Origin: a virus
Length of the DNA: 30,202 nt
Strand: one strand, 5' to 3'
IMG/VR virus record: IMGVR_UViG_3300008339_007144
Span: 1 to 30,202 of that record
Below the pieces are notes generated by a model. That model was not told the DNA's origin and did not search any database. It saw only the letters and a program-made list of their open reading frames with translations. Below are positions 8,942-30,202 of this stretch, piece by piece (position 1 is the first letter of the stretch; every line of letters starts with the position of its first letter). The translations under genes and the position numbers were made by a program.

Positions 8942-9433
8942 TTAGACGTTCACAATCGTACCGGACGGGACGCTCACAGCGTAGACCGTAACGAGAGCAC
9001 CGGCCAGACCAGTCGAAGCAGCCGCAATGACCGCAAAGAGAGTCTCACCGGGTTCAATCACGTTCGTCGCCGCCGCATAGTCCTCAGCACCAAGCGTACC
9101 CGTCGGAGACGCATCAGCAGCATCAGGCACATTCACCGTAAACGACGCATTGGTATTCGCCGTGATGGTGTTCAGGTCAAGGTTCGGAGCCACGTCAGCA
9201 GAGCCGACACCAGCAACCGCAACACCGGACGGAACCCTCTGCAACTTGCAGTTGCAGCCAGCGTTTGCCGCAGCAGCCGCCCTCACGGTCGCCGACACAA
9301 CAGCCAAACGGCTCCCGGTCGTATTCGTGAGGATCGGTACGTTCTGAGCAGCACCCGTAGCAGCCACAGGGGTCTCAAAGAGGAAGGGAATACCAATCTG
9401 CAAAGCCTTGTTCGTGATGATCGCACCAGCCAT
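8942..9433 (-). CDS. small beta-rich virion protein A
   Basis: A 163-residue protein rich in Ala, Val, Thr and Asn with alternating hydrophobic pattern (SRLAVVSATVRAAAAANAG, ETLFAVIAAASTGLAGALVTVYAVSV), consistent with a beta-sandwich of the decoration or head-fibre type; no specific family is recognised. It resembles its upstream neighbour (9477-9920) in layout: an N-terminal strand set, a central Thr/Asn-rich part, then a strand with E-G-x-x-(I/L) followed by a final strand ending in V. The two may be diverged duplicates. GGAG lies 8 bases before the ATG. It ends 25 bases before an intrinsic terminator. Confidence 0.6.
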   Translation of the reverse strand: MAGAIITNKALQIGIPFLFETPVAATGAAQNVPILTNTTGSRLAVVSATVRAAAAANAGCNCKLQRVPSGVAVAGVGSADVAPNLDLNTITANTNASFTVNVPDAADASPTGTLGAEDYAAATNVIEPGETLFAVIAAASTGLAGALVTVYAVSVPSGTIVNV

Positions 9434-15640: not shown

Positions 15641-18423
15641 CAGATACTCCTGAAACTTTGGTTGGCGGTGCCCAGAATCGAGCCCTGAGCCATCACCCCC
15701 AGCAGATTATAGTTGAGGTCCGAACAGAAAATCTCGATCGAAGGACTTACCATGAAGCCTGCGATGCTCGAACCACCCTGAATCTGAGAGGTGAGGTCCC
15801 TAAAGGAGGTCCAGTACGTCCCCTCATTGTCCTTGATGGATTGAGCAACGGTCCCATCCGTCTGGAGAGGCGTACCAAAGGACCTCGGAGCACTCTCATT
15901 ACCCCTATACACAGACGCCTTGTACCTACCTGAAACCGTTGCGGAGATACCCTGCTTGAAGTAGGCATCATCGACATCCGAGAAGCACGCCCCAATGGAA
16001 CTGATAGACTTCAACCTGAAAAAGTTGACCCCTCCAAAGTCCTGCCCATTCACCTCAATACCAACCGGATGACCAACCCACCTCATATAAACAGGGGAGA
16101 TGGAAACTGTATCCCCATTCCTGAAGTTGGTTGAGTTGGTGATGGTGATGGTCGATCCAGAAATATCCGTAATCGTACCCGTCTTACCAAAGTTGGAACC
16201 CCACGTCAAGTTGTACATGACTCCACCCAGAATAGAGTCGGATGGAGCATCTCCCCCCGTCAGGTCGAAGTTGGAGCCCGTCTGATTGGCCAACACAAAC
16301 CGGGAGTCACCACCAGCATCGAGAAGCCTGATGGCTCTCAGACCATTCAAACTGCTGTTGGTCGTTGAAGTGATGGTCTTGGAGCCCGTTGCATCCATCA
16401 CATAGATGTCCGCACAGAACGCAGCCGTGGACCTCCGACAGTTCAGGAAGAAGGCCCTCTCCGTGCAGTCTGCCTCGACGCTCGCAGCGACCAAGGGGTT
16501 CGTCGGCCACACCCCCCTATCCGAATACATGAACGGGATATCCCTCAGTTCAGTGACCCGAGAAGCATCAAGCCACAGGGTAATCATCGGATCAACGCCA
16601 CGCACCCACACAAACACCGCACCGGCATAGGGGTCGTACGTCACAAACGCAGGGTTCCCGGCCTCCAACCCACCAGCCCACAGATTCTTCACCACGTAAT
16701 CACAGGACCTCACATCATCCATATCACCATTGACATTGACGGCTTTGAGGCCCTTGGTCGTCAGGAAGTACGCAAACGAACCCACACTGGTGGCGGCCAT
16801 CCTCCCACCAATAACCCCGTACCCCTCATGGATTTCCTGAATCTTGATGTAGATGGACTCCCTGCGGATATGGTACATCCTGTCACGAGAGAACCCGATC
16901 ACATTCCCTGACACCAGCACGAACGTCTGCACCTCATTCGACGGGATGTTCGGAACATACCTACTCGTGGGCGGGAACAACTCCGGTGAGCCCTCAGTCA
17001 GCGTTGACCACCTGATCTCACCCAACGCGAGCGTGTTCTCCCCGACATCTCCGGTACCCTTGCGAATACCGCTGACCAACACACACCCCTCATAGTTGAT
17101 GGCAACACCACCCGGAGGCACCCTCGGATCAAACTCGGGCCTCTCAATGTAGGTGTCCTGAAGCACGAGGGCCTTATCATCCAGCCTGATCCAATACACA
17201 GACTGTCCAACATTCGATGCAGCAGGGGTGGTCGGATACGCCGGATCGACCGCCCACTCATCCAGATTGATGACTGCCTCCTGCGAAAGGATAGCGGACG
17301 TGAACGTACCACCGCTCCCCTCAGTCCTCGCACTCCTGAAGATGATGGCCTTATCGTACTTCGTCTTCTCGTAGGCAATCTCGATCCCGATGTACTTGTA
17401 AATGTCATCGGTAGTGGTAACTGTGGGGGTCCCGGCCTGCCACTGACTGTCAGGAGTCTCACCGCTGCCGGGAGCGAACGGATCGAAGTCAGGGGGCCTC
17501 ATCTGCCCAATCAAAGAGAGTGGGCCCTTCAACCCCGTCTTACTGCTCAGCAGTTGGTAGGCGAAAGCGTACGAGCCCGGGACAAGGACCCGACACGCTC
17601 GATCAAGGTCAGCAGCAGTATCATAATCACCGGGGATGGTCGTCCCATGCACAGTACCCGCACCCGTAAAACTTCCGGGTGACAACGTGTAAGGAGGGTG
17701 GTGAATCTGTCCACGCGAGTACGCCCCCGCGTACCCCCCCGAATACGAGGACAACTGCCCAATGTTGAGGGCGAGGTTGGGGTCGAGGAGTTCGGGCCTG
17801 TTCCCCGGTCCAGTCCTCGTGGTCGTCCCAATGCCCCCAACACACACCTCATCGTAGGCCGGGGAACCCCCCGTCTCCCTCACATAGAAGAGAATCGGGT
17901 CCCTGCCCTGCATGTAGATGTAGACCAACCTTCCGTACACCACGACATCCCAAGGCTTTGAGGCGTCAACCTCTTCAACCAACTGCCTCGAATACATGGT
18001 CGTGGTACCAGTCAGGGAGTTCCTATACTGGATGTGGATCGAGGCGACACCATCGTAACCACCCAACACCCTGTACACAAACCCATATCCAAACCCACCG
18101 TCACCGATCCGGAAACAGACGGACCTAAACTCATCAATGGTCCACGACGTACCCGGATCACCAGCCATCCACGGATGGGTCGGAGAGGTTGGAGCAGCCC
18201 CGTTGTATGTCCACGGGTTGTTCTCCTCCTCTTCCGGCTGAAGAGAGGCAACCTTCAAGAAGCCGGGGAAGGGCCTGAGCCCACCATCAAGCCGCCCGTC
18301 AACCCCCACCAGTTCAGAGGCCATCCCCTTCTCCGTGGAGACACGGTTGGCCCTCCGATCCTCCGTCACCTGAAGGAGGGGGTACATCCACGTCACACTC
18401 TGCGTTTCGGTTTCCTTCGGCAT
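15640..18423 (-). CDS. large tail protein (tail-tube/stabilisation type)
   Basis: A 927-residue protein and the largest uninterrupted tail gene. Near the N-terminus GVDGRLDGGLRPFPGF (about 39-54) is like the start of tail tubular B/stabilisation proteins of podoviruses; the rest is beta-rich with many Gly, Tyr and Thr (SVYWIRLDDKALVLQDTY; VFVWVRGVDPMITLWLDAS). T7 gp12-like proteins form the tail nozzle and are similar in size. The start is taken at ATG 18423, which has GGAGG 6 bases upstream; an in-frame TTG at 18438 would place the ribosome site inside the gene. It follows the adaptor-like gene cluster and precedes internal proteins, the usual podovirus order. Confidence 0.55.
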   Translation of the reverse strand: MPKETETQSVTWMYPLLQVTEDRRANRVSTEKGMASELVGVDGRLDGGLRPFPGFLKVASLQPEEEENNPWTYNGAAPTSPTHPWMAGDPGTSWTIDEFRSVCFRIGDGGFGYGFVYRVLGGYDGVASIHIQYRNSLTGTTTMYSRQLVEEVDASKPWDVVVYGRLVYIYMQGRDPILFYVRETGGSPAYDEVCVGGIGTTTRTGPGNRPELLDPNLALNIGQLSSYSGGYAGAYSRGQIHHPPYTLSPGSFTGAGTVHGTTIPGDYDTAADLDRACRVLVPGSYAFAYQLLSSKTGLKGPLSLIGQMRPPDFDPFAPGSGETPDSQWQAGTPTVTTTDDIYKYIGIEIAYEKTKYDKAIIFRSARTEGSGGTFTSAILSQEAVINLDEWAVDPAYPTTPAASNVGQSVYWIRLDDKALVLQDTYIERPEFDPRVPPGGVAINYEGCVLVSGIRKGTGDVGENTLALGEIRWSTLTEGSPELFPPTSRYVPNIPSNEVQTFVLVSGNVIGFSRDRMYHIRRESIYIKIQEIHEGYGVIGGRMAATSVGSFAYFLTTKGLKAVNVNGDMDDVRSCDYVVKNLWAGGLEAGNPAFVTYDPYAGAVFVWVRGVDPMITLWLDASRVTELRDIPFMYSDRGVWPTNPLVAASVEADCTERAFFLNCRRSTAAFCADIYVMDATGSKTITSTTNSSLNGLRAIRLLDAGGDSRFVLANQTGSNFDLTGGDAPSDSILGGVMYNLTWGSNFGKTGTITDISGSTITITNSTNFRNGDTVSISPVYMRWVGHPVGIEVNGQDFGGVNFFRLKSISSIGACFSDVDDAYFKQGISATVSGRYKASVYRGNESAPRSFGTPLQTDGTVAQSIKDNEGTYWTSFRDLTSQIQGGSSIAGFMVSPSIEIFCSDLNYNLLGVMAQGSILGTANQSFRSI

Positions 18424-18434
18424 CGTACCCTCCT

Positions 18435-19211
18435 TCAAGCCTCAATGTGATTGGAGAACCCCGGCATGGCCCTCGGACACTCAAGATACTCATACCCGAG
18501 TTTGTGGTCCAACCTCGCCAAGGCCGTATCACCACACCCACACTCCCCACAATAATAGTTCCCCGGCTCCTTCTGGGATTCCTTCCGGGCAGGACACGCA
18601 CCAGTAACCCCATCCCCATGACAGGACGCCATCCGCCTGTCGTACATCTCCTTGGACACCCCTCTCCCGGATGTGAGGGATTTGCCGAGAGAGGTGGCTT
18701 TGGACCAAGTGGAACGGACAAGGGACCAGCGGGTTGAGGGTGATTTGGCCATCCACTGTTCACGTGGGGTTAGGGAGGCGAGCCTCCGATACACCTCGTC
18801 GCTGCATGAGAAGGCTTCGGCTGCGGCCTTCAAGAGGGGCAACGGGAAGGAGGGAGCCATCTCGATCAAGGAGGTCTTGGCCTCTTCCTTCGTGAGGTGG
18901 CGGCCCATCACCGTGAGGGCCACAACGGGCGGAAGACTTTTGAGGTCACGCTTTGCACTTTCGACGGCGTTCTTGACGACCTGCTGACGGAGTTGATGGG
19001 CTTCCTCGGTGGAGGGGTTTTTGGCCCAGCAGGCATCGCAGACCACAAGAGGGACACGTACGAAAGTGCCGAACTCCACGTCCACGAACCCACAGGAGGG
19101 GTTGCCGGGGGTGTATCGTCGGGCAGGACACTCCTGCATCCGAGTCAACTCCCGAACGTCAACCTTACTCGCAGAAGCAGCAACCGGATTGGATGATTTG
19201 GGTGTATCCAT
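18435..19211 (-). CDS. Cys-containing, zinc-ribbon-like protein of unknown function
   Basis: A 258-residue protein. There are two Cys-rich parts: N-terminal CPARRYTPGNPSC...CDACW (about residues 28-61) and C-terminal CHGDGVTGACPARK...YYCGECGCG...CPRAMPGF (about 198-252), with a helical middle. The Cys spacing suggests metal binding, but I cannot assign a family. The start overlaps the Cys-rich upstream gene by 47 bases. A repeat copy at 18656-18672 encodes S-G-R-G-V just before the C-terminal Cys part, and base composition flips there within the gene. Role unknown; it lies between adaptor-type and tail genes. Confidence 0.55.
   Translation of the reverse strand: MDTPKSSNPVAASASKVDVRELTRMQECPARRYTPGNPSCGFVDVEFGTFVRVPLVVCDACWAKNPSTEEAHQLRQQVVKNAVESAKRDLKSLPPVVALTVMGRHLTKEEAKTSLIEMAPSFPLPLLKAAAEAFSCSDEVYRRLASLTPREQWMAKSPSTRWSLVRSTWSKATSLGKSLTSGRGVSKEMYDRRMASCHGDGVTGACPARKESQKEPGNYYCGECGCGDTALARLDHKLGYEYLECPRAMPGFSNHIEA
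18656..18672 (+). repeat. dispersed repeat copy 10 (GGAT form)
   Basis: ACACCCCTCTCCCGGAT, exact. It lies inside a single gene, at the junction of two apparent domains. Counts are G22/C49 for 18541-18660 and G48/C23 for 18673-18792: a near mirror-image switch within one reading frame. Confidence 0.95.
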
Positions 19212-19977
19212 TTGAGCAGCAACAGACCGTCACTTGGTAGGGGCAGGCCACAAACGCAGAACCACAACAATCTCCGCAGGTCACAATGGCCTCACTACAC
19301 TCATCGAACCAGCACCCACACGCTTGTGCATTGACGGCTGCACAGAGACCGGGGCACTGAGAGCAGGCACCTCCAGCCGTGGCAGGCGGAATCGGGCCCG
19401 ACATCGTTGAGAGCATGTTGAGGGCTTGGTACCAGTACGCGGTATTGTAGTATGAGGGGTCGTCAGGGGGAATCTCAGGACCGGGATTCTCATTGAACTT
19501 CGAGAACCCAGCCACACAACTTTCCACCTGAGTAGGGGTACAGCCGGTCCCACCACCCCCTCCAGTCCAGCCCGGAATCTCCGGGGGAGGAGGAGGGTCG
19601 ATTGTGCCGGGAGTGCCGTCCGGTCCCGTCGTCCTCCCAGAAGGAGGAGGAGGCACAGGAGGAGGAGCGGAGGTGGTGGGGCTTGACGGGATCAACTCAG
19701 AAACGCCGTCCTGTGCCGATGGGGCGGCGAGGGGGGCCCTTCCGGGCGGATTGATGGCGTTCACGATCGAGCCGATCGGTTCGATGCCCTCGTAGACACC
19801 GGCCCTCGTCCTCTGAACAAGGTGGGGTGTTACCACGGGAACAATGCCCTCACGGGCCCGCTCCTGAAAGAGGCGGTCGCGTAGCCTCTGATACTTCTCG
19901 TCGGACCACCCGGGGGTGAACCCTTCGAGGAAGCGGGCCATCGTCGCCCTTCCGTTGCCGGACGTGTCAAATGGCAT
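19165..19977 (-). CDS. Cys-rich protein with poly-Pro linker
   Basis: A 270-residue protein. Residues 1-60 are helical and charged, about 85-150 are Pro/Gly-rich (PPPVPPPPSG, PPPPPEIPGW), and the C-terminal ~130 residues hold 18 Cys, 16 of them in the last ~70 residues (patterns CSQCPGLC, CGDCC, CCCSNG, CCFCE). This resembles a disulphide-knotted or multi-metal domain; no family is recognised. There is no signal peptide. It overlaps the adaptor-like gene by 11 bases at its start and the next gene by 47 bases at its end. Given its neighbours it may be a virion protein, but the reducing cytoplasm makes so many cysteines unusual for a phage structural protein. Confidence 0.6.
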   Translation of the reverse strand: MPFDTSGNGRATMARFLEGFTPGWSDEKYQRLRDRLFQERAREGIVPVVTPHLVQRTRAGVYEGIEPIGSIVNAINPPGRAPLAAPSAQDGVSELIPSSPTTSAPPPVPPPPSGRTTGPDGTPGTIDPPPPPEIPGWTGGGGGTGCTPTQVESCVAGFSKFNENPGPEIPPDDPSYYNTAYWYQALNMLSTMSGPIPPATAGGACSQCPGLCAAVNAQACGCWFDECSEAIVTCGDCCGSAFVACPYQVTVCCCSNGYTQIIQSGCCFCE

Positions 19978-20881
19978 AGTTCCCGTCCCTCGGAGTTACC
20001 CACTGTGAGAACGGATTGTCAACGGTGTGCCTCTCGAAGCCACCGGGCCTCTTGTTGTTGAGGTTCGCAAGTTGATCACCGATGGTCTTGATGGCCGAGC
20101 GATAGTTCAACTGGAGTCCCTGCAACTGTGTACCCGGGGTCCTCCGAATGGTGGCAAGGCGGATCGCCGATGCCAAAGCGATGGCGTCCCACAAAGCCTG
20201 TGACTGCCCCATCGGAACCACCTCAACCTTGTGGGTACCGCTCGGGGTCGGATCGAAGTTCCTCCTCAAGGTGAACGTCCTCGTCGTGAAATCGTACGCG
20301 GAGATCACCCGCTCTTGGATTTCAGCGGAAGACGTGTTCGGAATCAGCCTGAGCATGTGACCAACGTACGCCGACTTCCTCCGATCCAATGCCCCGAGCG
20401 TCGGAGTCGCCGGAACAACCACGGTCGAGGCCGTCGTACTCGTCACATCTCCATAGAAGGGCATCGCATCCCCATTATTGATGTACCAGAGCGTGAAGGT
20501 CCCACCAGAGGAGGGTGCGGGTCTCACGGCCAGCACGTTCCCTTCGACGGTCCACCCCGGCCCAAACGGATGCGTCTCCCCGCGAGGGGTCCACTCCGTC
20601 GTCACAGTGCCGTTGGCATCCGTAATGCCCAACCTCACAACCTCACCCACACAGGGCGGCAGGTCATAGAACTCCTGATTGGCCACAATGTTGATAGACA
20701 CCCGGTTGTACACCGGATTGTCCAAAAAGAGGCTCAGCCGTCCCTGCACATCAACCATCGCCGGTGTGATGATGTGACGGATGATCCAGTCCGCAGTATA
20801 CTTCGCGTCCGTGTCGGGATCGTCCGTGTAGGCCCGCACCCTCTCCAGAATCGTGTACAACATTGAACCACTGGAGTGCAT
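19967..20881 (-). CDS. head-tail adaptor / tail-tubular-A-like protein
   Basis: A 304-residue protein. The N-terminal helix (LYTILERVRAYTDDPD) is followed by a long mixed segment with VNRVSINIVANQEFYDLP-type strands and charged helices (ALWDAIALASAIRLATIRR) near the C-terminus. The N-terminal helices, then an xxFYDLPP strand and beta domain, resemble phage adaptor or tubular-A proteins that sit under the portal; assignment rests on this pattern and on gene order between capsid and large tail protein. The ATG at 20881 has GGGG just upstream; a second ATG at 20863 is possible. Confidence 0.5.
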   Translation of the reverse strand: MHSSGSMLYTILERVRAYTDDPDTDAKYTADWIIRHIITPAMVDVQGRLSLFLDNPVYNRVSINIVANQEFYDLPPCVGEVVRLGITDANGTVTTEWTPRGETHPFGPGWTVEGNVLAVRPAPSSGGTFTLWYINNGDAMPFYGDVTSTTASTVVVPATPTLGALDRRKSAYVGHMLRLIPNTSSAEIQERVISAYDFTTRTFTLRRNFDPTPSGTHKVEVVPMGQSQALWDAIALASAIRLATIRRTPGTQLQGLQLNYRSAIKTIGDQLANLNNKRPGGFERHTVDNPFSQWVTPRDGNYAI

Positions 20882-20890
20882 ACATTCCCC

Positions 20891-21466
20891 TTACGGAAGG
20901 ATCAGTTTCGGAACCGAAATCACACGCCCAGCCGCCCTACTCAGAAGGTCCCTCGCGGTATCCCTCACGCGATCCCTGTCCGTGAACGACTCCACCTTCA
21001 TGGATGACAGCGTGAGGTTCACGTCGTCCTGCGTCCAACCAGTCTGCTTCCTGAGCCACTTCCCGAGCCTCTTCTTCTCGTCCTGAATACCCCTCAGCAG
21101 ACTCTCCCTGAGCCTCCTCCGCTCTACGATCTTGCGGATTCTCCGACTGGCGGTCGTCCGCATATTCCTGAAGAGGTTGCCCATGAGGTCCGGGTTCGGT
21201 CCAAACCCCTCATCTGGATTCCCCTCAAAGACCTCGACCTCGTGCATCAGTCCCGGCTCCCCACACCTCCGAGGCTTCCTGATCCACTGGGCAAGGACCC
21301 AGTTTCCAGTTCTCGCGTGCCTATAGGTAAACACGTCTTTCCGATTACCCATCCTCGAAACAACCCCAGCCAACCTCGTGTTCCGAATCTGGTGGATTCG
21401 AGGGTGGAAAGTGGTTCCGTTCGCAGAAAGGTAGGAGTCCGTCACAGGATCATAAGTGGTTCTCAT
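20891..21466 (-). CDS. small basic protein downstream of capsid gene
   Basis: A 191-residue, Arg-rich protein, not recognised. Residues 85-160 contain dense basic helices (ASRRIRKIVERRRLRESLLRG, KKRLGKWLRKQTGW). The ATG at 21466 is chosen because GGAG lies about 10 bases upstream; a longer frame reaching 21565 would begin inside the terminator hairpin. It is the first gene after the capsid-gene terminator, 9 bases before the adaptor-like gene. Basic character suggests contact with DNA or with the acidic capsid, as in head-completion proteins, but this is an inference. Confidence 0.55.
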   Translation of the reverse strand: MRTTYDPVTDSYLSANGTTFHPRIHQIRNTRLAGVVSRMGNRKDVFTYRHARTGNWVLAQWIRKPRRCGEPGLMHEVEVFEGNPDEGFGPNPDLMGNLFRNMRTTASRRIRKIVERRRLRESLLRGIQDEKKRLGKWLRKQTGWTQDDVNLTLSSMKVESFTDRDRVRDTARDLLSRAAGRVISVPKLILP

Positions 21467-21532
21467 GGTTGATGTTCTCCGGGTTCCCCCTCTACGCCCC
21501 ACAATCATAGGCGGATCACTGAAAATGAAAAT

Positions 21533-21558
21533 GGGGGACCCCCGCAAAGAGGTCCCCC
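21533..21558 (-). terminator. intrinsic terminator downstream of the capsid gene
   Basis: On the minus strand GGGGGACC (21558-21551) pairs with GGTCCCCC (21540-21533) across a 10-base loop, followed by the T-rich tract ATTTTCATTTT. It stands 43 bases after the capsid stop (21601). A terminator after the capsid gene is typical of T7-like phages and lets capsid mRNA be made in excess over tail genes. The rest of the 134-base gap up to 21600 shows no other feature. Confidence 0.85.
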
Positions 21559-21600
21559 ACACCACTCAGAGGCCCGCCCGAGCCTCACCCAGAAGATCAA

Positions 21601-23199
21601 TCAGGCCACGTAACTGCCGCTCACAGCGGTGTCACCGTAGGTCCTGTCCTCAGTGCAACCAGTCAGCAGGAGACCCGCAGGCTGCTCGGCCATGACCTGC
21701 ATACACAGGACACCGGGCATCTGCGAAGCCTCAGTGAGGCGACCGCTCGCATCCGTGATCGGGAGACGGTTGCTGCCGTGGCCCGCCAGAATGTTCGCCA
21801 CAAACTTGAAGGGAGCGAACGCCGGGACCTGACCGAGGCTCTGGGCCCCAGCCGGATCAGGCGGAACGATCCTCTTCCAGTTCTGGCCACCCTTCTTGTG
21901 GCCCAGCACAACACCACTCTCAATGAATAGGGAGGTGTAGCCGGTGTAAGACCGACCGTCATACTTGATCTGGAAGCCTTCCTCAGAACCCTCATTGTTG
22001 AGGCTCGACAGACGGTTGGTCCGATCAATCTGATACTGACCGATCTTCTGAGCCTCATAGGCCAGCCAGACACCATCAGACGCCACGAGGAAGTCGATGC
22101 TCTGACCGTACTTGTCCTTGGCCCTGTGGAACGCACGGAGGTTCCTGCGAAGCACCTGCTCCGTCAAAACCCCGTTGATGTTCTTCAGATAGGACCGATG
22201 CTCAGGGTACTTCACCACGTCGATCTTGCCGTCCTCAGCACCCTCGGGACCACCACCCACAGCCTCATCACCCAGCAGATACCGCAGCGAGGCAGAGTCC
22301 GCCGAGTTCGTCGAGAACTTCATGTAGGAGCGGTACCCAGCGATACCACGGAAACCACTGGTGGCCTTGCTGTTCGCATAGACCACGATGTCACCGTTGG
22401 TCACACCAGAGAGGGCCGCCTCCGAAACCAGCACAACGAACGGACCATTCGCATCACCGATCTCATCGACCAGTTCAACGTACGTCCGAATCCTCGTACC
22501 GGAAGCCTCATTCCTGCGGGTAGCACCCGTGCTGTCATACACGTCCACCCTCTCACCAAGAATGAAACGCTCAACAGCCTTGTTCGTCGGGTAGAACTTC
22601 GTCCGATACACGGTACCACCCGAACGACCAGTACCAGTCGAGGTCGCCACATTGGAGATGGCGGCCAGCCTATACGAGTCATTCTGGCTGGTATAGAAGG
22701 CGTTGGTCAGGCGATGCACAATATTCCGTGCAAAGCCCTCCATCCTCGGAGCCGTAATCTCCGTGAGCACCGAGGACGTAGCCTCAGCCCGGAGTTCGGC
22801 CATCGACACGGGCATGTTGGTATTCATGCTCCGCATCGGAATCGTCAACCTTACGGGGATCGGGCTCACCGCCTCGGTCGCATCCGGGAACGTCCTTGCG
22901 TAGTTCCTGCGGATCATGCGATCACCAAGGTCCGTGACGTTATCGTCACCGAACAGCCCAAAGTCGTTCTGGCTGGGGCCCCAACCCGGCTCGATCACAC
23001 CACCGAACATGTGGTTGAAAATCTTGTGGATCAGGTAGCCACGACCCAGTTGGTCCGACGGAACAACACCCTGACTGGAGGCGATCATGTCCCTCCAGAA
23101 GGGGTCGATCTGCGGCATGAAGGTCGTGATGTTGGTGTTCAGGACTTCCTGAATCGCCGTACGGTTGGTGTCAAAGACGGAGCCAATGGTTGCAGTCAT
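21601..23199 (-). CDS. major capsid protein
   Basis: A 532-residue protein. It is placed directly after a scaffold-like gene and directly before an intrinsic terminator, with its own promoter and structured leader, as expected for the most abundant virion protein. The sequence is mixed alpha/beta with few low-complexity parts (MIRRNYARTFPDATEAVSPI; VRLTIPMRSMNTNMPVSMAE, a likely spine helix or E-loop region; NIVHRLTNAFYTSQNDSYRL). I do not recognise a specific family, but size and context fit an HK97-fold coat protein. AAGGAA lies 6 bases before the ATG. Confidence 0.75.
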   Translation of the reverse strand: MTATIGSVFDTNRTAIQEVLNTNITTFMPQIDPFWRDMIASSQGVVPSDQLGRGYLIHKIFNHMFGGVIEPGWGPSQNDFGLFGDDNVTDLGDRMIRRNYARTFPDATEAVSPIPVRLTIPMRSMNTNMPVSMAELRAEATSSVLTEITAPRMEGFARNIVHRLTNAFYTSQNDSYRLAAISNVATSTGTGRSGGTVYRTKFYPTNKAVERFILGERVDVYDSTGATRRNEASGTRIRTYVELVDEIGDANGPFVVLVSEAALSGVTNGDIVVYANSKATSGFRGIAGYRSYMKFSTNSADSASLRYLLGDEAVGGGPEGAEDGKIDVVKYPEHRSYLKNINGVLTEQVLRRNLRAFHRAKDKYGQSIDFLVASDGVWLAYEAQKIGQYQIDRTNRLSSLNNEGSEEGFQIKYDGRSYTGYTSLFIESGVVLGHKKGGQNWKRIVPPDPAGAQSLGQVPAFAPFKFVANILAGHGSNRLPITDASGRLTEASQMPGVLCMQVMAEQPAGLLLTGCTEDRTYGDTAVSGSYVA

Positions 23200-23280
23200 A
23201 TGTCATTCCTTCTTCGTGGTCCCCCGAACAGGGGGTTGGGGCTTTCCCCATATGTTCAGGGGCAGGTGTCCAACGCGAAC
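23200..23280 (-). promoter_or_regulatory. structured leader of the capsid mRNA
   Basis: On the minus strand the leader contains GGGG-AAAG-CCCC as a small hairpin and flanking GAACA...TGTTC arms, with CCCCC-TGTTC-GGGGG as a competing hairpin just before the ribosome site. These could form alternative structures or protect the mRNA end. The ribosome site (AAGGAA) lies beyond the last arm, so the structures need not block it. Stability or translational control of capsid mRNA is inferred. Confidence 0.4.
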
Positions 23281-23287
23281 ACCCTCC

Positions 23288-23293
23288 ATTATA
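23288..23293 (-). promoter_or_regulatory. extended -10 promoter upstream of capsid gene
   Basis: The minus strand reads TGGTATAAT, a perfect extended -10 (TGnTATAAT) for a housekeeping sigma-70 polymerase. The hexamer 17 bases upstream is GGAAAA, a poor -35, as is common for extended -10 promoters. It lies in the 141-base non-coding gap before the capsid gene; transcription would start near 23281, giving an ~80-base leader. Repeat copy 11 sits just upstream. Confidence 0.6.
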
Positions 23294-23319
23294 CCAAACA
23301 AGCCTCCCTCTTTTCCACG

Positions 23320-23335
23320 ACACCCCTCTCCCGAC
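23320..23335 (+). repeat. dispersed repeat copy 11 (GAC variant)
   Basis: ACACCCCTCTCCCGAC. It is intergenic, 5 bases downstream of the scaffold stop codon and upstream of the capsid promoter. Composition is C-rich on the left (23201-23320: G26/C40) and balanced on the right (23341-23460: G36/C35), a partial flip. Confidence 0.92.
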
Positions 23336-23340
23336 CGGGT

Positions 23341-24267
23341 TTAGAGGTAGGAGTTTCCACCCTGAGAGGCGGTTTCAGCCGCAGCCCTCAGCAGTCGGTC
23401 TCGGTTATAGTCCCGCAGCCCAGTCAAAACTTCGTCCTTTCGGCCCTTGGGATTCGGGGGGGCAACCGGGGGCTTCCCGTCAAGCAGGCTGGACAGGTCC
23501 TCGCCAACCGAGGGGGCCCTCCCCAATCCCTTGAAGTCACCCACCACAGCCTTGAAAATGTTGGTGGCCTCCGCAACGGCCTTCTTCGACTCCTCCCCGA
23601 TCCACGAGGGGTCGAACTTTCCGGTCAGGGCCTTCCTCTGTTCGAGGGAGCGGACGAGGCGGGCCCTCGCGTCCTTGATGATGCTCTGCCTGACGGTCTC
23701 GGCATCCTTCTTGTCACGCTGACCAACCTTCTCCAGCAGGAGTTTGGAGTCGGCGGCGTCCTGAAGGGCCTGTTCCAGACCCCCCGTAACTTGCTTGTTC
23801 AGGTTCTCCAGATTCATGCGGACGAGTTCACGACGCTGCTGCTCAACAGCCTGCATCACTTCGTCAAGCCTCGGATCACCTCCTTCAGCCGTGTCATCGG
23901 CACCGTCGCCCTGACCCCCATCATCACTAAAGGTCTTCCCGATGTACTCCTCGATCTGCTGAGGGGTGTACCCCTGCTGAGTCATCAGGTAACGCATCGA
24001 CTTCGCCTGCTCCTCCTTGGGAGTGGTCGGAGTCAGCAACTTCCCAGCGTTCTCCTTGTACTGCTTGAGTTCACTCACCTGACCCTGAAGGGAGTCAAGG
24101 TTCTTGCGGGCCTCCAGAAGTTCGGCCACAGTGTACGCCTTCCCGCCCACGGTAATGGGCGAGTCCAGATTGAGGGCACCCCCACTGGGGACCCCCGGGT
24201 TCGGATTGAGATTCGGGTTCGGGACGGGCTGGTTCACGGTCTTGTCAGCGTTCTGATCGGTGCTCAT
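23341..24267 (-). CDS. capsid scaffolding-like protein
   Basis: A 308-residue acidic helical protein. Residues 1-35 are Asn/Pro-rich, 50-100 helical, 110-130 an acidic Gly-rich stretch (DDGGQGDGADDTAEGGD), and 130-230 coiled-coil-like (EVMQAVEQQRRELVRMNLEN). Placed between portal and capsid genes, it fits a scaffold, which guides capsid assembly and then leaves. AAGGAA lies 6 bases before the ATG. The 94-base gap to the portal gene contains a possible GGGACC/GGTCCC stem but no T-run and no gene. Confidence 0.65.
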   Translation of the reverse strand: MSTDQNADKTVNQPVPNPNLNPNPGVPSGGALNLDSPITVGGKAYTVAELLEARKNLDSLQGQVSELKQYKENAGKLLTPTTPKEEQAKSMRYLMTQQGYTPQQIEEYIGKTFSDDGGQGDGADDTAEGGDPRLDEVMQAVEQQRRELVRMNLENLNKQVTGGLEQALQDAADSKLLLEKVGQRDKKDAETVRQSIIKDARARLVRSLEQRKALTGKFDPSWIGEESKKAVAEATNIFKAVVGDFKGLGRAPSVGEDLSSLLDGKPPVAPPNPKGRKDEVLTGLRDYNRDRLLRAAAETASQGGNSYL

Positions 24268-24361
24268 AAATGGTTCCTTCTGGCTGGTGTTTGGGGGACC
24301 CTCTCTTTACGGTGTTGGTGGTCCCGTGGTTCACATGATGGTAGGCCAACAACCCACCAAC

Positions 24362-26308
24362 TTACTGCTGGGGCACGGAAATACTTTGGTCGGGAGTGGG
24401 GACTCCCTCGGGCAGGACATTCCCCATCGACAGTTCAAGGAACTGCTTGTAGCGGAGGAACTGATCCTGTACCTCTGGGGAGGCCCTCCTCATGGCCGGT
24501 CCCACCATGAAGGACTGGAGGACCCGAATCTGGATGTCGGGGGCCGCCGTATGTGGTGTCACCGTGATCTCACCCGGAGTGATACCGTCTCCATACAGGG
24601 TGAGGATGTCGCGGATGCCGGACTCGTAGGCCCCCTGTTCCCTCGTGAGCCAGCCCGGAATATCCCACCCCTCATTGAGGGCGGCCAACACAAAGTTCCC
24701 CGGACTCATAATACCGAGTTGGAGGTACTGGAGGGCCTCTTGCTTTCGAGCGACCATCGACCTCGGATTCGTCTCCCTGACCGTAAACGTCAGACGGGAG
24801 ACATCGGGGATCGGGTTCGTGGGGAACGAGACCTCAGACTTGTCCGGGTCGATGATGGCCCCAGCCAAGTCCAGCGTGAGCCGTGTGACGGGCATGGGCC
24901 TCGGCGAGACCGCCAACTGCCCCGCCATCGTGGAAACCACATACTTGTAGACACCGCCGAAGGTTTGCTGGATGGCCCTCGTCGGCGTGGTCATCGCCTT
25001 CGAGAGTGCTTCATCGAGCAACTGGAGACCGCTGGCTGAGTCCACCCTGCCCTTCTCACGGATGATGTCGCGGATCGGGTTGAGTTCGTCGATCATCTGC
25101 TTCGACATCATGGCGACCTTGCCGGGCACGTCCCCCGAGTTGAAGGGCTGCACAACGAAGGGCCTGAAGTTCTCCGTGAGGGCGTCCGGCTGATACTGCA
25201 CGACTCGGAGGCTTCCGCCCACCTCCTTCATGGCCGTCCTCTCGTTGAAGGAGCCTTGCGGGACAACCAAGAAACCGTAGCGGTCGATCGACCTCACATT
25301 GTTGTAGAGAGACTTGAGCATCAGTTCGAGTTGCCTGCACTGTGCGAACAGCAAGTCGAACATACCAGCCCCATAGAAAGTGCCGGTCTCGAAGAACCTC
25401 GCCACTTGAATGGGGCTTGTGACGCCCAACTCCGACACATCCTGATCCACAAGGGTGGCATCCCCCGACGTAACCACATACCTTTCGAGGATGCCTTGGG
25501 GTCCCTCCAACCACAGTTCATTGATGCGGACCACATCGGCATACTCATCCTCGGGATTCACACGACCCTTGAGTACGCTCCCTGAACGCTCCGTTGCGGC
25601 CCCGCTAAGGTCCCTCGCATCGTTCTCGTCGTAGGACATGTTCTGGCCGATCTGGAGTTTCCAAGCATCCATCTCATCGGCCTTACCCGCCAGCACCCTC
25701 TTCCCAATCCTCTCCTCCAAGAAAGAGAGGGGGACGGTCCTCCGCCTCACAACACCACGCTGCTTGAGGTGGTCCATGCCGATGGTCGGGAACGGCATCA
25801 GTTCACGGGGATGCACCACCTCCAAGTCGGAGGTGAGACCGATCGTCGGATGATCCAACACAGAGCCCACCAAACCCACGCACCCAAGCGTCGTAAACAG
25901 ATGGGAGAACTGGGTCTTCACCTTTTCGAGGTGGTCGTTGTTCACGCCAGCATCCGCGATGATTTGAGCGATCGACCGCTCCCGGATGCCCGACAGCGAG
26001 AAGCCCTGACGGACGACCATCGGTCGGAGGTCCATCGCCGCAATCCTGCCCTGTACCCGGTCGATGGCGGCCAACAGGTCCGTGGCCTGAAACTCCAGAT
26101 TTCCTTCCTTGTCGAGGTACGTCCCCCTCACGTTGCCGGTCGTCAGGTTCAGGACGTTGAAGTTACGAACCCCATTGAGATAGAACCAAGCGAGTTTCCA
26201 CTTGGTCCTCATCCACGAGTTCATAGCCCTCTCACGTTCGATGTGCTGGGCGATCACCCGAGCCAGTGCCTTGGGATTTTTGGGGAGCCGGATGGTGTCG
26301 ATCGCCAT
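24362..26308 (-). CDS. portal protein
   Basis: A 648-residue protein, in the size range of podovirus portals. The N-terminal half has alternating helices and strands (ALARVIAQHIERERAMNSWM; ELMPFPTIG; DEYADVVRINELWLEG), the middle contains a segment resembling portal stem/wing helices (LLFAQCRQLELMLKSLYNNV; MMSKQMIDELNPIRDIIREK), and the C-terminal part has crown-like helices. It directly follows the terminase gene and precedes the scaffold, the standard order. Portals form the dodecameric ring through which DNA is packaged. AAGGA about 9 bases before the ATG supports the start; the preceding small gene overlaps by 77 bases. Confidence 0.75.
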   Translation of the reverse strand: MAIDTIRLPKNPKALARVIAQHIERERAMNSWMRTKWKLAWFYLNGVRNFNVLNLTTGNVRGTYLDKEGNLEFQATDLLAAIDRVQGRIAAMDLRPMVVRQGFSLSGIRERSIAQIIADAGVNNDHLEKVKTQFSHLFTTLGCVGLVGSVLDHPTIGLTSDLEVVHPRELMPFPTIGMDHLKQRGVVRRRTVPLSFLEERIGKRVLAGKADEMDAWKLQIGQNMSYDENDARDLSGAATERSGSVLKGRVNPEDEYADVVRINELWLEGPQGILERYVVTSGDATLVDQDVSELGVTSPIQVARFFETGTFYGAGMFDLLFAQCRQLELMLKSLYNNVRSIDRYGFLVVPQGSFNERTAMKEVGGSLRVVQYQPDALTENFRPFVVQPFNSGDVPGKVAMMSKQMIDELNPIRDIIREKGRVDSASGLQLLDEALSKAMTTPTRAIQQTFGGVYKYVVSTMAGQLAVSPRPMPVTRLTLDLAGAIIDPDKSEVSFPTNPIPDVSRLTFTVRETNPRSMVARKQEALQYLQLGIMSPGNFVLAALNEGWDIPGWLTREQGAYESGIRDILTLYGDGITPGEITVTPHTAAPDIQIRVLQSFMVGPAMRRASPEVQDQFLRYKQFLELSMGNVLPEGVPTPDQSISVPQQ

Positions 26309-26603
26309 TTGTTTGGGTCCTTCTCTTCGAGTATTCAGACATCGGGATCACCCTCTGATCTCCCGCCCAGATGAGGGGGTCAGCCGACGGCACAAAGTTC
26401 TCTGCCTGCTCCTCAATGATAGGCTCCTCTTCGACACCCCTCTCCCGGATGTCCTGTCGGGCTTCGGGGGGGCCATAGAGACGGAGTTTCTCCAGTTCCC
26501 GCTGGTCCCTGAGAAGTTGCTTCAGGAAGGAGAGGGGGATGGTGCAGGGTGGGTCACGGTGGTCGTACTGCTCGTCAGGCGAGCGTGGGGCGGTTGGATT
26601 CAT
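26232..26603 (-). CDS. small hypothetical protein between terminase and portal
   Basis: A 123-residue hydrophilic protein of unknown function, with a charged helical middle (LSFLKQLLRDQRELEKLRLY) and a His/Gln/Gly-rich end. Its start overlaps the terminase stop by 29 bases and its end overlaps the portal gene by 77 bases in a different frame, so the last ~25 residues are constrained by the portal sequence. The repeat copy at 26434-26450 is read D-I-R-E-R-G-V in this frame. Position suggests a packaging or portal-assembly accessory. Confidence 0.45.
   Translation of the reverse strand: MNPTAPRSPDEQYDHRDPPCTIPLSFLKQLLRDQRELEKLRLYGPPEARQDIRERGVEEEPIIEEQAENFVPSADPLIWAGDQRVIPMSEYSKRRTQTNGDRHHPAPQKSQGTGSGDRPAHRT
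26434..26450 (+). repeat. dispersed repeat copy 12 (GGAT form)
   Basis: ACACCCCTCTCCCGGAT, exact, inside the 123-residue gene. Counts are G29/C38 for 26311-26430 and G50/C25 for 26451-26570. Confidence 0.95.
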
Positions 26604-28500
26604 GGCGGTCCTTCTCCAGAACTTTCTGCATCACGTACTCGGGATCGACCTTGCTCCAGTCCACCCCCAAACCAAGGGGTGCCCCGGTGGCATCATAGAG
26701 TTCCCCGTCCATAATCCGGGAGAGGGGTGTACGCTCCTCCTCTGGTTTGGTTCGGTCGTACGTACGCGACCTGATAACAAACATGGACATGGCTACGGTG
26801 TCGATGTGGTCGTCGTGCTGGAGACCCCCGTTGTCCGCGTCCGGGTTGAACTCACCGATCTGTTCGAGGAGTTTGCGGACAGCCGGATTCGAGGAGTTCC
26901 ATGTGGGCAACTTGATGGTGCCCAACCGGAAGCGAACCTCTAAGGCGGCGATCTTGTCTTCCTTGCGGGTCATGCCGGGTTTCACGGCGACGACCTTCGG
27001 GGCAAACGTCAGTGAGAGGGCCTTGGTGCGGCACAGGGAGTCGAGTTCGTGGTAGAGGCCGTAGGACTCGCGGACCACCTCCGGGTGTATAGAGGCCCTC
27101 CACCTCTCGGCCATCCTCAAAGTGGCCTCGACCAACTCCTTCTGGAGACACTGTTTGCCCCAAATCTCCATGACGAAGAGTTCGTTGTGGTTGGGGATGT
27201 AGGCCATGCACGTACAGACCTTGTAGTCGGAGTCGGAGCGGGCCGTGTACGAGGTGTCCACCGTAATGAAGAAACGGGCCTGCTTCGCAAAGTCCGCCAT
27301 CGGCATCACGACCTGTTCGCCGTTCCTCTGGAAGCAGATGGAGGCTTTGGACTGGAGAGGGTTGGTCTCGAAGTCGTGGTCGGTGTTGATGGGCTTCCAT
27401 GCGTGAGCCTCCCCGATCTCAGGGAAGAACGCTTCGCCTTCGGTGCCGGGCTCCGCAAGGTACTCGGAGTTGTAGTTGGCCACACCGATCTGCTCCTTGA
27501 TGCTTTCGAGGGAGATGGCGTTGCGGTGGATCGTAGGGTCATCCTTCTTGTCTGATTCGGTGAGGGGCCACATCTGGGGCCAACAGGAGCGGCGGACACC
27601 TTCGGCGTCGTCGTACTCCGCCTTGATGAGGAGACGGGACCAGTTGTTGAAACGGGGGTCCTTCGCCACCACCAACCCAGAGGGCAGGGTGATGGTTTCC
27701 ATTGCGGCCCACGCATAGTGCCTCTTGGAGACGAAGGTGTTGAACCAGTCCACGCCTGTGTCGGGACGCATCACCATCGGCAGCACGATCTTGTTGATGA
27801 GACGGTCCATGTACCCACGAACGATGGTCATGGACGTGGAGGCCCTCGGATCGTACTCTGGATCGTCGAGAATGTAGCGGCGGGGACGGCCACCACGCTG
27901 CTTCGAGTCCGCCGAGATACAGCGGAGCCACGACCCATTGTTCAGGTAGAAGAAGTCGATGCCCTTGGGGGCGTCACCGTGGCTGGGCTTCATCCGACCC
28001 TTGTACTCGGGAGCGAAGTCCTCAAGGATTCGAGGGTTCTCGTAGCACTGGGCCTTCACACGCTGACCAGTCTCGCGGGCGTTCATGCCGGAGGAGGTGG
28101 CGTAGACCACCGAGTACATGGGCCTCGTCACAAGGTACTGAATGATGAGACGGCGGGCCAGCGTGGACTTCGCAGCACCACGCGGCAGGGTCGTAATGGT
28201 GCGGTTGTAGAGGGCCACGTTCCGAAGCAGGGCGTAGTGCATCGGAGGCATCTGGAGGGGAGGGTCATCATAGAACATGGGCTCGAACTCGGTGTCCGGG
28301 TCCGGCTGCAAGTAGTAGATGTCAAAGAAACTGTGTGAGCGGATGAACCTCTCGGCCTTCTCATCAGGCTCCTGACAGTCGAGGAGCCACTGTCGTGAAG
28401 CGTTGACGCGGGCCATCCTCTGCCCTGCCTTCGTCAGCGAGGTGTAGTCAGCGGGCAACGGAAAGTTCGGCGACGAAAGTGGAATCCTCAGAATCTTCAT
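26575..28500 (-). CDS. terminase large subunit
   Basis: A 641-residue DNA-packaging motor. ATPase part: Walker A LPRGAAKST at 105-113 and Walker B YILDDPEYD at 209-217. Nuclease part: FITVDTSYTARSDSDYK with the first catalytic Asp near 415, and GLQHDDHIDTVAM at about 559-571 with the paired Asp residues near 563-564. The protein couples ATP hydrolysis to DNA translocation into the prohead and cuts concatemers. The start lies on the stop of the upstream gene. A repeat copy near the C-terminus is read T-P-L-S-R-I, in a likely linker after the nuclease domain. It lies in a strongly G-rich plus-strand stretch. Confidence 0.9.
   Translation of the reverse strand: MKILRIPLSSPNFPLPADYTSLTKAGQRMARVNASRQWLLDCQEPDEKAERFIRSHSFFDIYYLQPDPDTEFEPMFYDDPPLQMPPMHYALLRNVALYNRTITTLPRGAAKSTLARRLIIQYLVTRPMYSVVYATSSGMNARETGQRVKAQCYENPRILEDFAPEYKGRMKPSHGDAPKGIDFFYLNNGSWLRCISADSKQRGGRPRRYILDDPEYDPRASTSMTIVRGYMDRLINKIVLPMVMRPDTGVDWFNTFVSKRHYAWAAMETITLPSGLVVAKDPRFNNWSRLLIKAEYDDAEGVRRSCWPQMWPLTESDKKDDPTIHRNAISLESIKEQIGVANYNSEYLAEPGTEGEAFFPEIGEAHAWKPINTDHDFETNPLQSKASICFQRNGEQVVMPMADFAKQARFFITVDTSYTARSDSDYKVCTCMAYIPNHNELFVMEIWGKQCLQKELVEATLRMAERWRASIHPEVVRESYGLYHELDSLCRTKALSLTFAPKVVAVKPGMTRKEDKIAALEVRFRLGTIKLPTWNSSNPAVRKLLEQIGEFNPDADNGGLQHDDHIDTVAMSMFVIRSRTYDRTKPEEERTPLSRIMDGELYDATGAPLGLGVDWSKVDPEYVMQKVLEKDRHESNRPTLA
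26714..26730 (-). repeat. dispersed repeat copy 13 (GGAT form)
   Basis: The reverse complement is ACACCCCTCTCCCGGAT, exact. It is inside the terminase gene, 263 bases from copy 12 in the opposite orientation, so copies 12 and 13 form a long inverted pair. The plus strand is G/T-rich on both sides. Confidence 0.95.
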
Positions 28501-28994
28501 GTGGTGATCTTCTTGGAGTGGTCGTGAAGTTCCTTGAAAAGGAGGTCCATCATCCCCAACTTCACCATGATGAAGACAAATCCATGCGGGTCGTGGGCGG
28601 CAGGCACAATCTGGTAGAGGTTGAGGAGGGGTCGGTAGAAGTGTGTGCGAAGTTTCTTGGAACCCTCGGGATTAGGCTCAAAGAGGTTGTTGAGGATTCG
28701 CTCTCCGAGTCTCCCCAGACCAGCGGGCTCGAAAACGTTGACATCGACGACACCCATGTCCATGAGGACGTAGGCCCCGAACCTCCCCACCGTCTCCATG
28801 TCCATCTGACCGAGGACGATGAAGGGTTCAACCGTGAGAACTTGGACTCTGCGGTGGAAGGATTCTTCCGAGTTGGGATCGACCGGAGGCAGCCTGTTGA
28901 TTTTGGGGGCTACCGAGGGAACTGTGGGCGTTCCTGAGTTTTCCAAGGAGTCCTGTGGTTGTGACGACGCGGCTGACCGTGCTACCTTCTTCAT
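28497..28994 (-). CDS. hypothetical packaging-region protein
   Basis: From ATG 28994 this is 165 residues (GGAG about 10 bases upstream); ATG 29036 and TTG 29045 would lengthen it. The first ~40 residues are low-complexity (Ser/Pro/Gln), the rest is a compact hydrophobic sequence (RVQVLTVEPFIVLGQMDMET; FGAYVLMDMGVVDVNVFEP; AHDPHGFVFIMVKLGMMDLL). It is not recognised. It overlaps the upstream gene by 167 bases and the terminase start by 4 bases. Function is unknown, but its position just before the terminase suggests a packaging role. Confidence 0.5.
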   Translation of the reverse strand: MKKVARSAASSQPQDSLENSGTPTVPSVAPKINRLPPVDPNSEESFHRRVQVLTVEPFIVLGQMDMETVGRFGAYVLMDMGVVDVNVFEPAGLGRLGERILNNLFEPNPEGSKKLRTHFYRPLLNLYQIVPAAHDPHGFVFIMVKLGMMDLLFKELHDHSKKITT

Positions 28995-29457
28995 TCTGGG
29001 TGGTCTCCATTTGCGAGGCTTGAGCGACCATCCCATTCTTTTCAAGGATGTCGCCCATCGTCTCCCGAAGTTGTGTCTGAGCCTTCAGACGATCCTGCAC
29101 CTTCGTGAGTGGGTTCCTGATGATATCGACGAGGAACTGAATCTCCTCATTGAGCGTGAATCCAGTGGAGGCGAGAGCAGCGTCCATCGCCCCCGCGTCA
29201 TACATCGACAGGAAGGCGTTGGTCGGCCCGGCCCTCTCGATGCGTCCACCCTGAGCAGCAATGTCCCTGATGTCAGCGGGGGTCGCCGACTCCACCAGCC
29301 CCTTCGTCTCCATTGGAAAGGACCTCTCCGTGATCGGCAGCCTCATCGGCTCCGTCACCTTCCCCTGAATCACTTGGGGGTCGGGCCTCTCCTCGGGATT
29401 GTTCTGCATCTGTGAGGGCATTGTTTGGGCTCGGGGCTGTGACGATGGGCGGATCAT
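28828..29457 (-). CDS. possible small terminase subunit
   Basis: A 209-residue protein. Its middle (NEEIQFLVDIIRNPLTKVQDRLKAQ...RETMGDILEKNGMVAQ, split here) is helical and resembles the oligomerisation region of small terminases, where a helix with RLKAxxxLxExxG leads to the end; this is a resemblance only. GAGG lies 6 bases before the ATG. It overlaps the upstream gene by 185 bases and the downstream gene by 167 bases. Small terminase recognises phage DNA and recruits the large subunit, and position upstream of the large terminase fits. Confidence 0.4.
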   Translation of the reverse strand: MIRPSSQPRAQTMPSQMQNNPEERPDPQVIQGKVTEPMRLPITERSFPMETKGLVESATPADIRDIAAQGGRIERAGPTNAFLSMYDAGAMDAALASTGFTLNEEIQFLVDIIRNPLTKVQDRLKAQTQLRETMGDILEKNGMVAQASQMETTQNEEGSTVSRVVTTTGLLGKLRNAHSSLGSPQNQQAASGRSQLGRILPPQSPSSHG

Positions 29458-29956
29458 CCTTCACCTCAGTACGGTAGAACTCAAGTGCTTGTTTGTCAAA
29501 CTTCCTCTGGGCCTTCGTCGGAGAAAACGCATAACTGAGGACCCGAGAGACCGCCGAAACGGCTTCCTCCCTCACATCGAGGTGCTGCCAACCCTTCAGT
29601 TTGTAGGCGGCCACCAACTCCGCCAGATAGACTTCGTGGTTCTTGGCCAGTTCCTCCACATCGACCTTGCACACGAACTGCTCCCCCCTTCGATCGGCCA
29701 GAAAGGCGGAGCCGGGTGCAGCAAAGTTCTTCTGACCCACCGACATGATGTGACGCATCGCCACCAGAAACGAAGTCTGATCGACAAACCGATTGTCCTG
29801 ACGCCCGATCTGGAGCATCGGCACACAGAGGGCGGCACAGAAGGCCCGAAAGCCCTTCCTCGTCATCCCGAAGGGACCCAAAACATTCAGGAAGTAATCC
29901 TCATGTACAAGGGTCATACCCATGCCAAGTCGGATGACCGGCTGCTCGGTCGGCAT
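29273..29956 (-). CDS. hypothetical protein with acidic tail
   Basis: A 227-residue protein. The first 165 residues are compact (YFLNVLGPFGMTRKGFRAFC; DQTSFLVAMRHIMSVGQKNF; VDVEELAKNHEVYLAELVAA), the last 60 are acidic and Gly/Ala-rich (DSGEGDGADEAADHGE) and overlap the next gene for 185 bases. AAGGAG is 8 bases before the ATG. Not recognised; it could be the small terminase instead of the next gene. Repeat copy 14 lies upstream of the start. Confidence 0.5.
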   Translation of the reverse strand: MPTEQPVIRLGMGMTLVHEDYFLNVLGPFGMTRKGFRAFCAALCVPMLQIGRQDNRFVDQTSFLVAMRHIMSVGQKNFAAPGSAFLADRRGEQFVCKVDVEELAKNHEVYLAELVAAYKLKGWQHLDVREEAVSAVSRVLSYAFSPTKAQRKFDKQALEFYRTEVKDDPPIVTAPSPNNALTDAEQSRGEARPPSDSGEGDGADEAADHGEVLSNGDEGAGGVGDPR

Positions 29957-29975
29957 CTTTTCATCTCCTTATTGG

Positions 29976-29991
29976 TCACCCCTCTCCCGAT
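29976..29991 (+). repeat. dispersed repeat copy 14 (GAT form)
   Basis: TCACCCCTCTCCCGAT. It is intergenic, between the stop at 30016 and the start at 29956. The right side is strongly G-rich on the plus strand (29992-30120: G60/C21), the left roughly balanced (29881-29975: G21/C25). Confidence 0.95.
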
Positions 29992-30015
29992 GTCGGGTGG
30001 GGGTTTGGGTGTGGT

Positions 30016-30202
30016 TCAGGAGTCAGAGGGCTTTGGGGTGGAGCGGGATTTTGAGGAGCGAGATTTGGAGCCGCCGAGGAGGTCCCGCCACTTGGAGGCT
30101 TCGTCGGGGGTGAGACCTTTGAGGTCCGAACCGGTCTCTGGGCCGGGGGTGGGTTCAGGGTTGGGGGTGGACTTGGGGGATTCCGGGGTGGAGGGGGCGG
30201 GG
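30016..30202 (-). CDS. C-terminal end of a Pro/Ser-rich protein (partial)
   Basis: This is open from the window edge to a TGA (complement of 30016-30018). The 62 visible residues are Pro/Ser/Thr/Lys-rich (STPESPKSTPNPEPTPGP; SKSRSSKSRSTPKPSDS) with a short ordered part LKGLTPDEASKWRDLLGG. No family can be named. The beginning is outside the window. Third-position C is very strong on the coding strand, which makes this the most G-rich plus-strand stretch in the window. Confidence 0.5.
   Translation of the reverse strand, partial: PAPSTPESPKSTPNPEPTPGPETGSDLKGLTPDEASKWRDLLGGSKSRSSKSRSTPKPSDS

Follow-up and report, generated by a model that had tools for sequence, protein, structure and literature searches.

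The window, a stretch of 30,202 nucleotides from the viral record IMGVR_UViG_3300008339_007144, encodes on its minus strand a 532-aa protein whose ATG (23199) is separated from the end of an upstream scaffold-like gene (23341) by a 141-base spacer. This is the largest gap between any two gene models of the window, of which 3.7% lies outside gene models. We refer to the 532-aa gene as the capsid gene on the basis of synteny: a terminase (PHROG 38), a portal-sized gene, a scaffold-sized gene and the 532-aa gene follow one another, with an SU10-type adaptor further on, and this terminase-portal-scaffold-capsid-adaptor order is kept in two relatives. The protein itself matched nothing in PHROG or Pfam, phmmer against the PDB returned nothing at E 1 and tblastn nothing at E 0.1; its AlphaFold model was discarded (mean pLDDT 30). 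In an annotated phage collection, the capsids of the window and of two relatives were without a tblastn match, and the terminases had distant matches only.

A sequence-only reading had described the spacer as a control region composed of a repeat, TGGTATAAT, GGGG-AAAG-CCCC, GAACA/TGTTC arms, CCCCC-TGTTC-GGGGG, AAGGAA and the ATG. All of these are present on the minus strand, and the repeat next to the promoter is the eleventh copy of its kind, as had been stated (Table 1); the 7-bp hairpin at the 5' end of the leader had been missed. Rfam gave no match, and 181 bases around the control region gave none in phage records. The 16-mer ATCGGGAGAGGGGTGT was found in seven stretches of viral contigs with one match apiece, and these we took as chance.

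Table 1 Features of the spacer upstream of the capsid gene, of the capsid gene itself and of the dispersed repeat
Feature	Position	Strand	Remark
13-mer CGGGAGAGGGGTG, all copies	478, 2452, 3022, 3915, 4424, 7532, 8170, 8923, 13797, 18669, 23333, 26447, 26717, 29989	both	
Repeat copy 11, 13-mer CGGGAGAGGGGTG	23333-23321	-	one of 14 copies, both strands
-35-like hexamer TGGAAA	23317-23312	-	4/6 match (weak); spacer to -10 of 18 nt
Extended -10 TGGTATAAT	23296-23288	-	start site inferred at 23283-23280
5' hairpin GGTGTTC-GCGTT-GGACACC	23283-23265	-	7 bp; -8.4 kcal/mol
Second stem-loop, 10-bp stem CCCCTGAACA/TGTTCGGGGG around TGGGG-AAAG-CCCCA	23262-23221	-	-22.6 kcal/mol
Arms of 10-bp stem, CCCCTGAACA / TGTTCGGGGG	23262-23253 / 23230-23221	-	
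CCCCC/GGGGG hairpin	23235-23221	-	less stable alternative inside second stem-loop
Ribosome-binding site AAGGAA	23211-23206	-	6 nt 5' of ATG
Capsid gene, 532 aa	21601-23199	-	named by synteny
Intrinsic terminator 3' of capsid gene	21561-21522	-	13 pairs

The -10 element matches the consensus TGnTATAAT of sigma70 extended -10 promoters perfectly. The motif TGNTATAAT occurs once in the window, as TGGTATAAT, where 0.08 occurrences are expected, and at least one occurrence was present in 8/100 shuffles of the window. In a sigma70 scan, this site ranks first with a score of 12 (runner-up 10); the same score was reached in 1/40 shuffles of the window and, when the 141 bases alone were shuffled, in 3/20,000, with 2/20,000 containing the motif. 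Compared with TTGACA at 16-18 nt, the -35-like hexamer is a weak match with an 18-nt spacer, which counts against the site as a promoter, as does the fact that relatives manage without such a promoter. A -35 hexamer is dispensable where the -10 is extended. The shuffles speak for a non-random host-type promoter match, and the claim that it is the only strong one is borne out by the scan for this 30-kb fragment; further promoters may lie beyond its ends: open frames run past both ends of the window, and the records of relatives reach ~50 kb. Among the proteins searched in the fragment, no match to a phage RNA polymerase was found.

The leader that would follow this promoter (23283-23200) has a predicted folding energy of -33.9 kcal/mol compared with -25.2 ± 3.1 kcal/mol in shuffles, of which 3/500 were equally stable. 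Among 26 upstream regions of 84 nt it ranks first in stability by a narrow margin (next, -33.3 kcal/mol), and 3.5% of all 84-nt windows match it. The significance of the fold varies with the RNA that is chosen, i.e. with its start and with the inclusion of coding sequence: the energy drops to about -27 kcal/mol if the RNA starts at 23281 or 23280, and extending an RNA with that first start into the coding sequence gives z = -0.93, 30/200 shuffles folding at least equally well. Taken singly, the 5' hairpin is equaled in stability by 0.56% of 19-mers sampled across the window, and the second stem-loop by 0.14% of sampled segments of its length. The sequence-only reading had cast the two arrangements of the second stem-loop as competing hairpins; these are unbalanced, given that the leader with the 10-bp stem is better by 5.4 kcal/mol than the leader forced into CCCCC/GGGGG, and a balanced RNA switch finds no support in these energies. 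The accessibility of the capsid ribosome-binding site is ordinary (rank 10/30), with no unusual openness found.

Searches for close relatives with the terminase, portal and capsid proteins and with the adaptor and tail proteins returned a sister contig only, and a search of genome contigs returned no relatives. The sister contig corresponds to positions 17888-30024 of the window at 99.7% identity with zero differences over 20208-30024. The identical control sequence in a second assembly argues against an assembly accident, and, because differences are lacking over this stretch, the comparison is silent on selection and covariation. Using the large protein encoded at 5834-8869 as query, we obtained six distant relatives, and the capsid gene was located in three of the six records (44-46% identity); in these three, the scaffold-capsid gap is 28 bases and contains neither repeat nor leader. 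A capsid alignment of three sequences (A1) then found 137 loci, the best 80 of which were analyzed, one of them being the sister contig; the capsids of the distant relatives are 41-47% identical to that of the window. Among these best 80 of 137 loci, the scaffold-capsid gap is 141 bases in the window's lineage and at most 42 bases (median 28) in all 79 others, which also lack exact copies of the 13-mer CGGGAGAGGGGTG; a gap of -41 at locus L077 reflects the choice of a longer overlapping ORF, and a stop codon sits 11 bases before the ATG there. After near-identical capsid starts had been dropped from the 80, 48 non-redundant loci remained, and the best-scoring promoter in the 300 bases upstream reaches 12 in the window's lineage versus at most 9 in the 47 others. 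The records of 16 relatives (44 to 54 kb each, ~0.8 Mb) contain no TGNTATAAT, an absence that is only mildly informative because ~2 occurrences are expected by chance at the window's rate. By sequence comparison, then, the putative promoter, the leader and the repeat are specific to the window's lineage among the relatives examined. In a capsid tree with midpoint rooting, this lineage is a single long branch opposite all others, so that acquisition of the stretch by this lineage and its loss in the ancestor of the remaining loci are indistinguishable by the tree; we consider gain somewhat likelier.

Confinement to one lineage is also what a neutral 141-base spacer with a promoter and hairpins arising by chance could produce, and the dependence of fold significance on the RNA chosen points the same way. 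Nevertheless, we regard this explanation as very unlikely because the promoter score is so seldom reached in shuffles (3/20,000) and because long spacers are rare in a window with so little DNA outside gene models (3.7%).

The intrinsic terminator that had been proposed behind the capsid gene is present and strong (Table 1). Across the family, we took the best 45-base fold within 130 bases past the capsid stop and counted a hairpin as stable if it was matched at no more than 5% of 40 positions drawn at random from its own locus. By this measure, a stable hairpin lies 3' of the capsid gene in 46/46 testable non-redundant loci from the best 80 of 137, the window's lineage included, the 46 being the 48 non-redundant loci minus two that were short of downstream DNA. 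With a stricter rule that includes a T-rich tail, 21/46 are terminator-like compared with 4.8% of control windows. Judged from these sequences, the 3' hairpin is a family trait, to which the window's lineage adds the candidate promoter and leader 5' of the gene. In loci L036-L115 the post-capsid hairpin is very stable, with a TTCG loop in several. A second intrinsic terminator of the window (8916-8880, minus strand, six T) follows a 163-aa gene (8942-9433) and adjoins repeat copy 8.

What the sequence itself establishes is that a promoter motif is matched, that the leader is predicted to fold, that a terminator is present and that the relatives examined lack both promoter and leader. We think it fairly probable that the control stretch is a host-type promoter with a stabilizing leader ahead of a capsid-terminator unit, and we infer promoter use, polymerase, timing and mRNA protection by the hairpins as follows. 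Host RNA polymerase with sigma70 would recognize the extended -10 and start leftward at about 23281; the RNA would open with or near the 7-bp hairpin, and the second hairpin would end 9 bases before the ribosome-binding site; the transcript would end at the terminator, 70 to 80 bases past the capsid stop. From what is generally known of mRNA decay, hairpins at both ends would favor a stable capsid message. The product would be a short, structured mRNA, probably stable, that encodes the capsid protein, of which more copies are needed than of any other protein, and the purpose of the control stretch would probably be that the shell protein is made from its own message. The earlier proposal of a capsid-specific transcript stands in part: a candidate promoter and a terminator flank the gene, so that such a transcript is the simplest reading, but the hairpin switch and the tie to the repeat (see below) that had come with it are not supported.

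We also considered that the stretch might act in RNA processing or stability without any promoter. The two leader hairpins would then be points at which an upstream late mRNA is cleaved or shielded, such that the capsid part accumulates, and TATAAT would be incidental. Two strong hairpins in tandem before the ribosome-binding site would suit such an element, and relatives with gaps of at most 42 nt presumably transcribe their capsid genes from upstream. Yet the -10 very seldom arises by chance when the 141 bases are shuffled, the first hairpin begins where RNA from that -10 would begin, and typical RNase III sites have longer stems than those of 7, 10 and 5 bp seen here; we therefore hold this possibility to be unlikely.

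In T7, the capsid unit consists of phi10, gene 10 and Tphi. For LUZ100, a local promoter and a terminator directly behind the capsid gene are described as 'similar to T7' (PMC10134795). The window resembles both phages in that its major capsid gene, judged from the sequence, has a candidate promoter immediately in front and a strong terminator immediately behind; it differs in that their promoter is phage-specific and that of the window is of the sigma70 host type. Of a T7/LUZ100-type unit we found the terminator and did not find a promoter for a phage RNA polymerase. In having a putative promoter of the host RNA polymerase type and intrinsic terminators between modules, the window is like LUZ24-like and phiEco32-like podoviruses, although the promoters described for these in the accounts consulted serve gene groups, with none described there for the capsid gene alone (PMC3517423, PMC4281155, PMC8948821). 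If a promoter and leader indeed serve the capsid gene, this suggests that control of capsid dosage can vary within one phage family by ~100 bases at a nearly closed junction while the 3' hairpin is kept. It would also provide a testable example of T7-like capsid control on a host-type promoter in a family without capsid matches in the annotated phage collection.

The 13-mer CGGGAGAGGGGTG is present in 14 copies, 13 exact and one with one mismatch, of which ten lie on the minus and four on the plus strand. Nine of the 14 are in gene models (six sense, three antisense) and five are intergenic. Because the genic copies fall in more than one reading frame and in either orientation, DNA rather than peptide seems to be conserved. 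The sequence-only reading had specially tied the repeat to capsid control; the 13 other copies lack a comparable -10 (at most 4/6 matches at the spacing of copy 11, copy 12 having TATCAT, 5/6, at a different spacing), and with 9/14 copies inside gene models this tie is not supported. Nor do the -10 matches of the other copies support a role of the repeat in binding an activator that acts on a -10. The repeat adjoining the promoter is probably not part of the capsid mechanism. Copies 5 and 11 (4412-4437 and 23320-23345) share their upstream flank, with 26-nt arms that are 92% complementary and 10/15 identical upstream bases, the highest of 91 pairs, and one may have been copied from the other.

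That the repeat nearly touches the -35 position bears on the possibility that the promoter is used not by the plain host enzyme but by a phage-encoded or modified holoenzyme, with a phage sigma factor or with an activator on the repeat at about -52 to -40. phiEco32-like phages use their own sigma factors, and a predicted HTH protein of the window (2780-3238) weakly matches ECF sigma factors and LuxR-type HTH domains in its modeled structure. We consider this quite improbable, however: the -10 is found once, whereas promoters of phage sigma factors recur; the 13 other repeat copies have at most 4/6 matches to TATAAT at the same spacing; and the structural evidence is weak, with a mean pLDDT of 57.8, a top Z of 5.5 and a Foldseek E no better than 0.51.

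We compared the repeat with known elements. There is no conserved promoter body upstream of the 13-mer, and a T7-type promoter body was rejected because the columns that exceed the 95% null outside about -3 to +15 are single and scattered. Nick sites of tf, phiKMV-like and T5-like phages share with the repeat ~14 copies of a fixed short motif mostly in coding DNA; those are, in the reports cited, on one strand only (PMC3517423, PMC11780129), and the mixed strands of the window (10 minus, 4 plus) led us to reject this identity. Like L5 stoperators, the repeat is an asymmetric 13-mer in many copies. Stoperators have an orientation that follows transcription and occupy promoter or short intergenic positions, unlike a repeat with 9/14 copies in gene models, three of these antisense, and we rejected this candidate too. 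The repeat does qualify as an over-represented asymmetric G-rich motif of the Chi kind. Chi sites are likewise short, G-rich, over-represented and mostly genic (PMC3784561, PMC8022716); the repeat differs in its 13 nearly invariant bases and sparser spacing, and a Chi-like role, which would entail recognition by RecBCD or AddAB of the host, is putative.

Relatives carry G-rich motifs of their own. The records of six of them (G001 to G006) contain no exact CGGGAGAGGGGTG, and TGGGGGGA occurs 16, 17, 9, 38, 24 and 5 times in these, whereas its reversed control is found twice in G001 and never in G002 to G006; in the window the counts are two and, for the control, one. In ten other records, which were picked because their loci showed the motif and hence are not a blind test, TGGTGGGG occurs 24 to 63 times per record (control, 1 to 4) compared with six in the window (control, three). 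In samples of 27-40 kb, the top 8-9-mer was G-rich in 12/12 relatives, being CTGGTGGGG or CTGGTGGG in four, GTGGGGGGA or TGGGGGGA in seven and GTGGGGGGG in one; in single loci of 5-10 kb a G-rich 8-mer was sometimes not at the top, and loci below 5 kb were left out. The strongly over-represented dispersed motifs, which are specific to clades, comprise CTGGTGGGG/GCTGGTGGG and GTGGGGGGA in records G001-G024 (loci L018-L135) and CGGGAGAGGGGTG in the window. In the capsid tree, the TGGTGGGG type comprises 15 loci, which cluster as a single group with support 100/99; the 30 loci of the TGGGGGGA type do not, two of them adjoining the TGGTGGGG group, and two loci are without an assigned type. Motif type, which for each locus rests on small counts, appears largely to follow the capsid tree.

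The 9-mer GCTGGTGGG of the TGGTGGGG group contains the E. coli Chi sequence GCTGGTGG, and CTGGTGGGG overlaps Chi; both the Chi sequence itself and how abundant it is in phages have been described (PMC8022716, PMC3784561). From these patterns it seems likelier that the motifs, copy 11 included, are Chi-like or protein-binding sites than that they serve capsid control. The window's 13-mer is longer and sparser than the motifs of the relatives, which counts against equating them. Tentatively, and with more doubt than confidence, these observations can be joined in one picture: an uncultured phage family would combine a strong post-capsid hairpin in every member tested with genome-wide G-rich motifs that vary by clade (GCTGGTGGGG; GTGGGGGGA; CGGGAGAGGGGTG in the window), the window's lineage would have an autonomous capsid promoter and leader beside one motif copy, and the motifs would either act like Chi, each adapted to a different host, or be bound by a DNA-binding protein of the phage that co-evolves with them. 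Clade-specific G-rich motifs, one of them with Chi, might give a clue to which hosts uncultured phages infect.

Three further genes of the window deserve mention. The HTH protein (plus strand), whose weak likeness in the structural models includes ECF sigma factors and LuxR/sigma4-type HTH domains, had no row at Z 8 in structure comparison, so that no family was assigned; its start codon is ambiguous because of an overlap with an ORF at 2311-2787 in another frame. The large virion-type protein (5352-6089 and 5834-8869, minus strand) appears, by eye, to be split by a frame change near 6090-6110, its C-terminal part continuing in another frame; in two relatives it is one gene of 1306-1311 aa. 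Finally, the C-terminal end of a GroES-like co-chaperonin, with a match to Pfam Cpn10 just under the curated cut-off (E 0.0008), occupies positions 1-159 on the plus strand and runs off the left end of the window.
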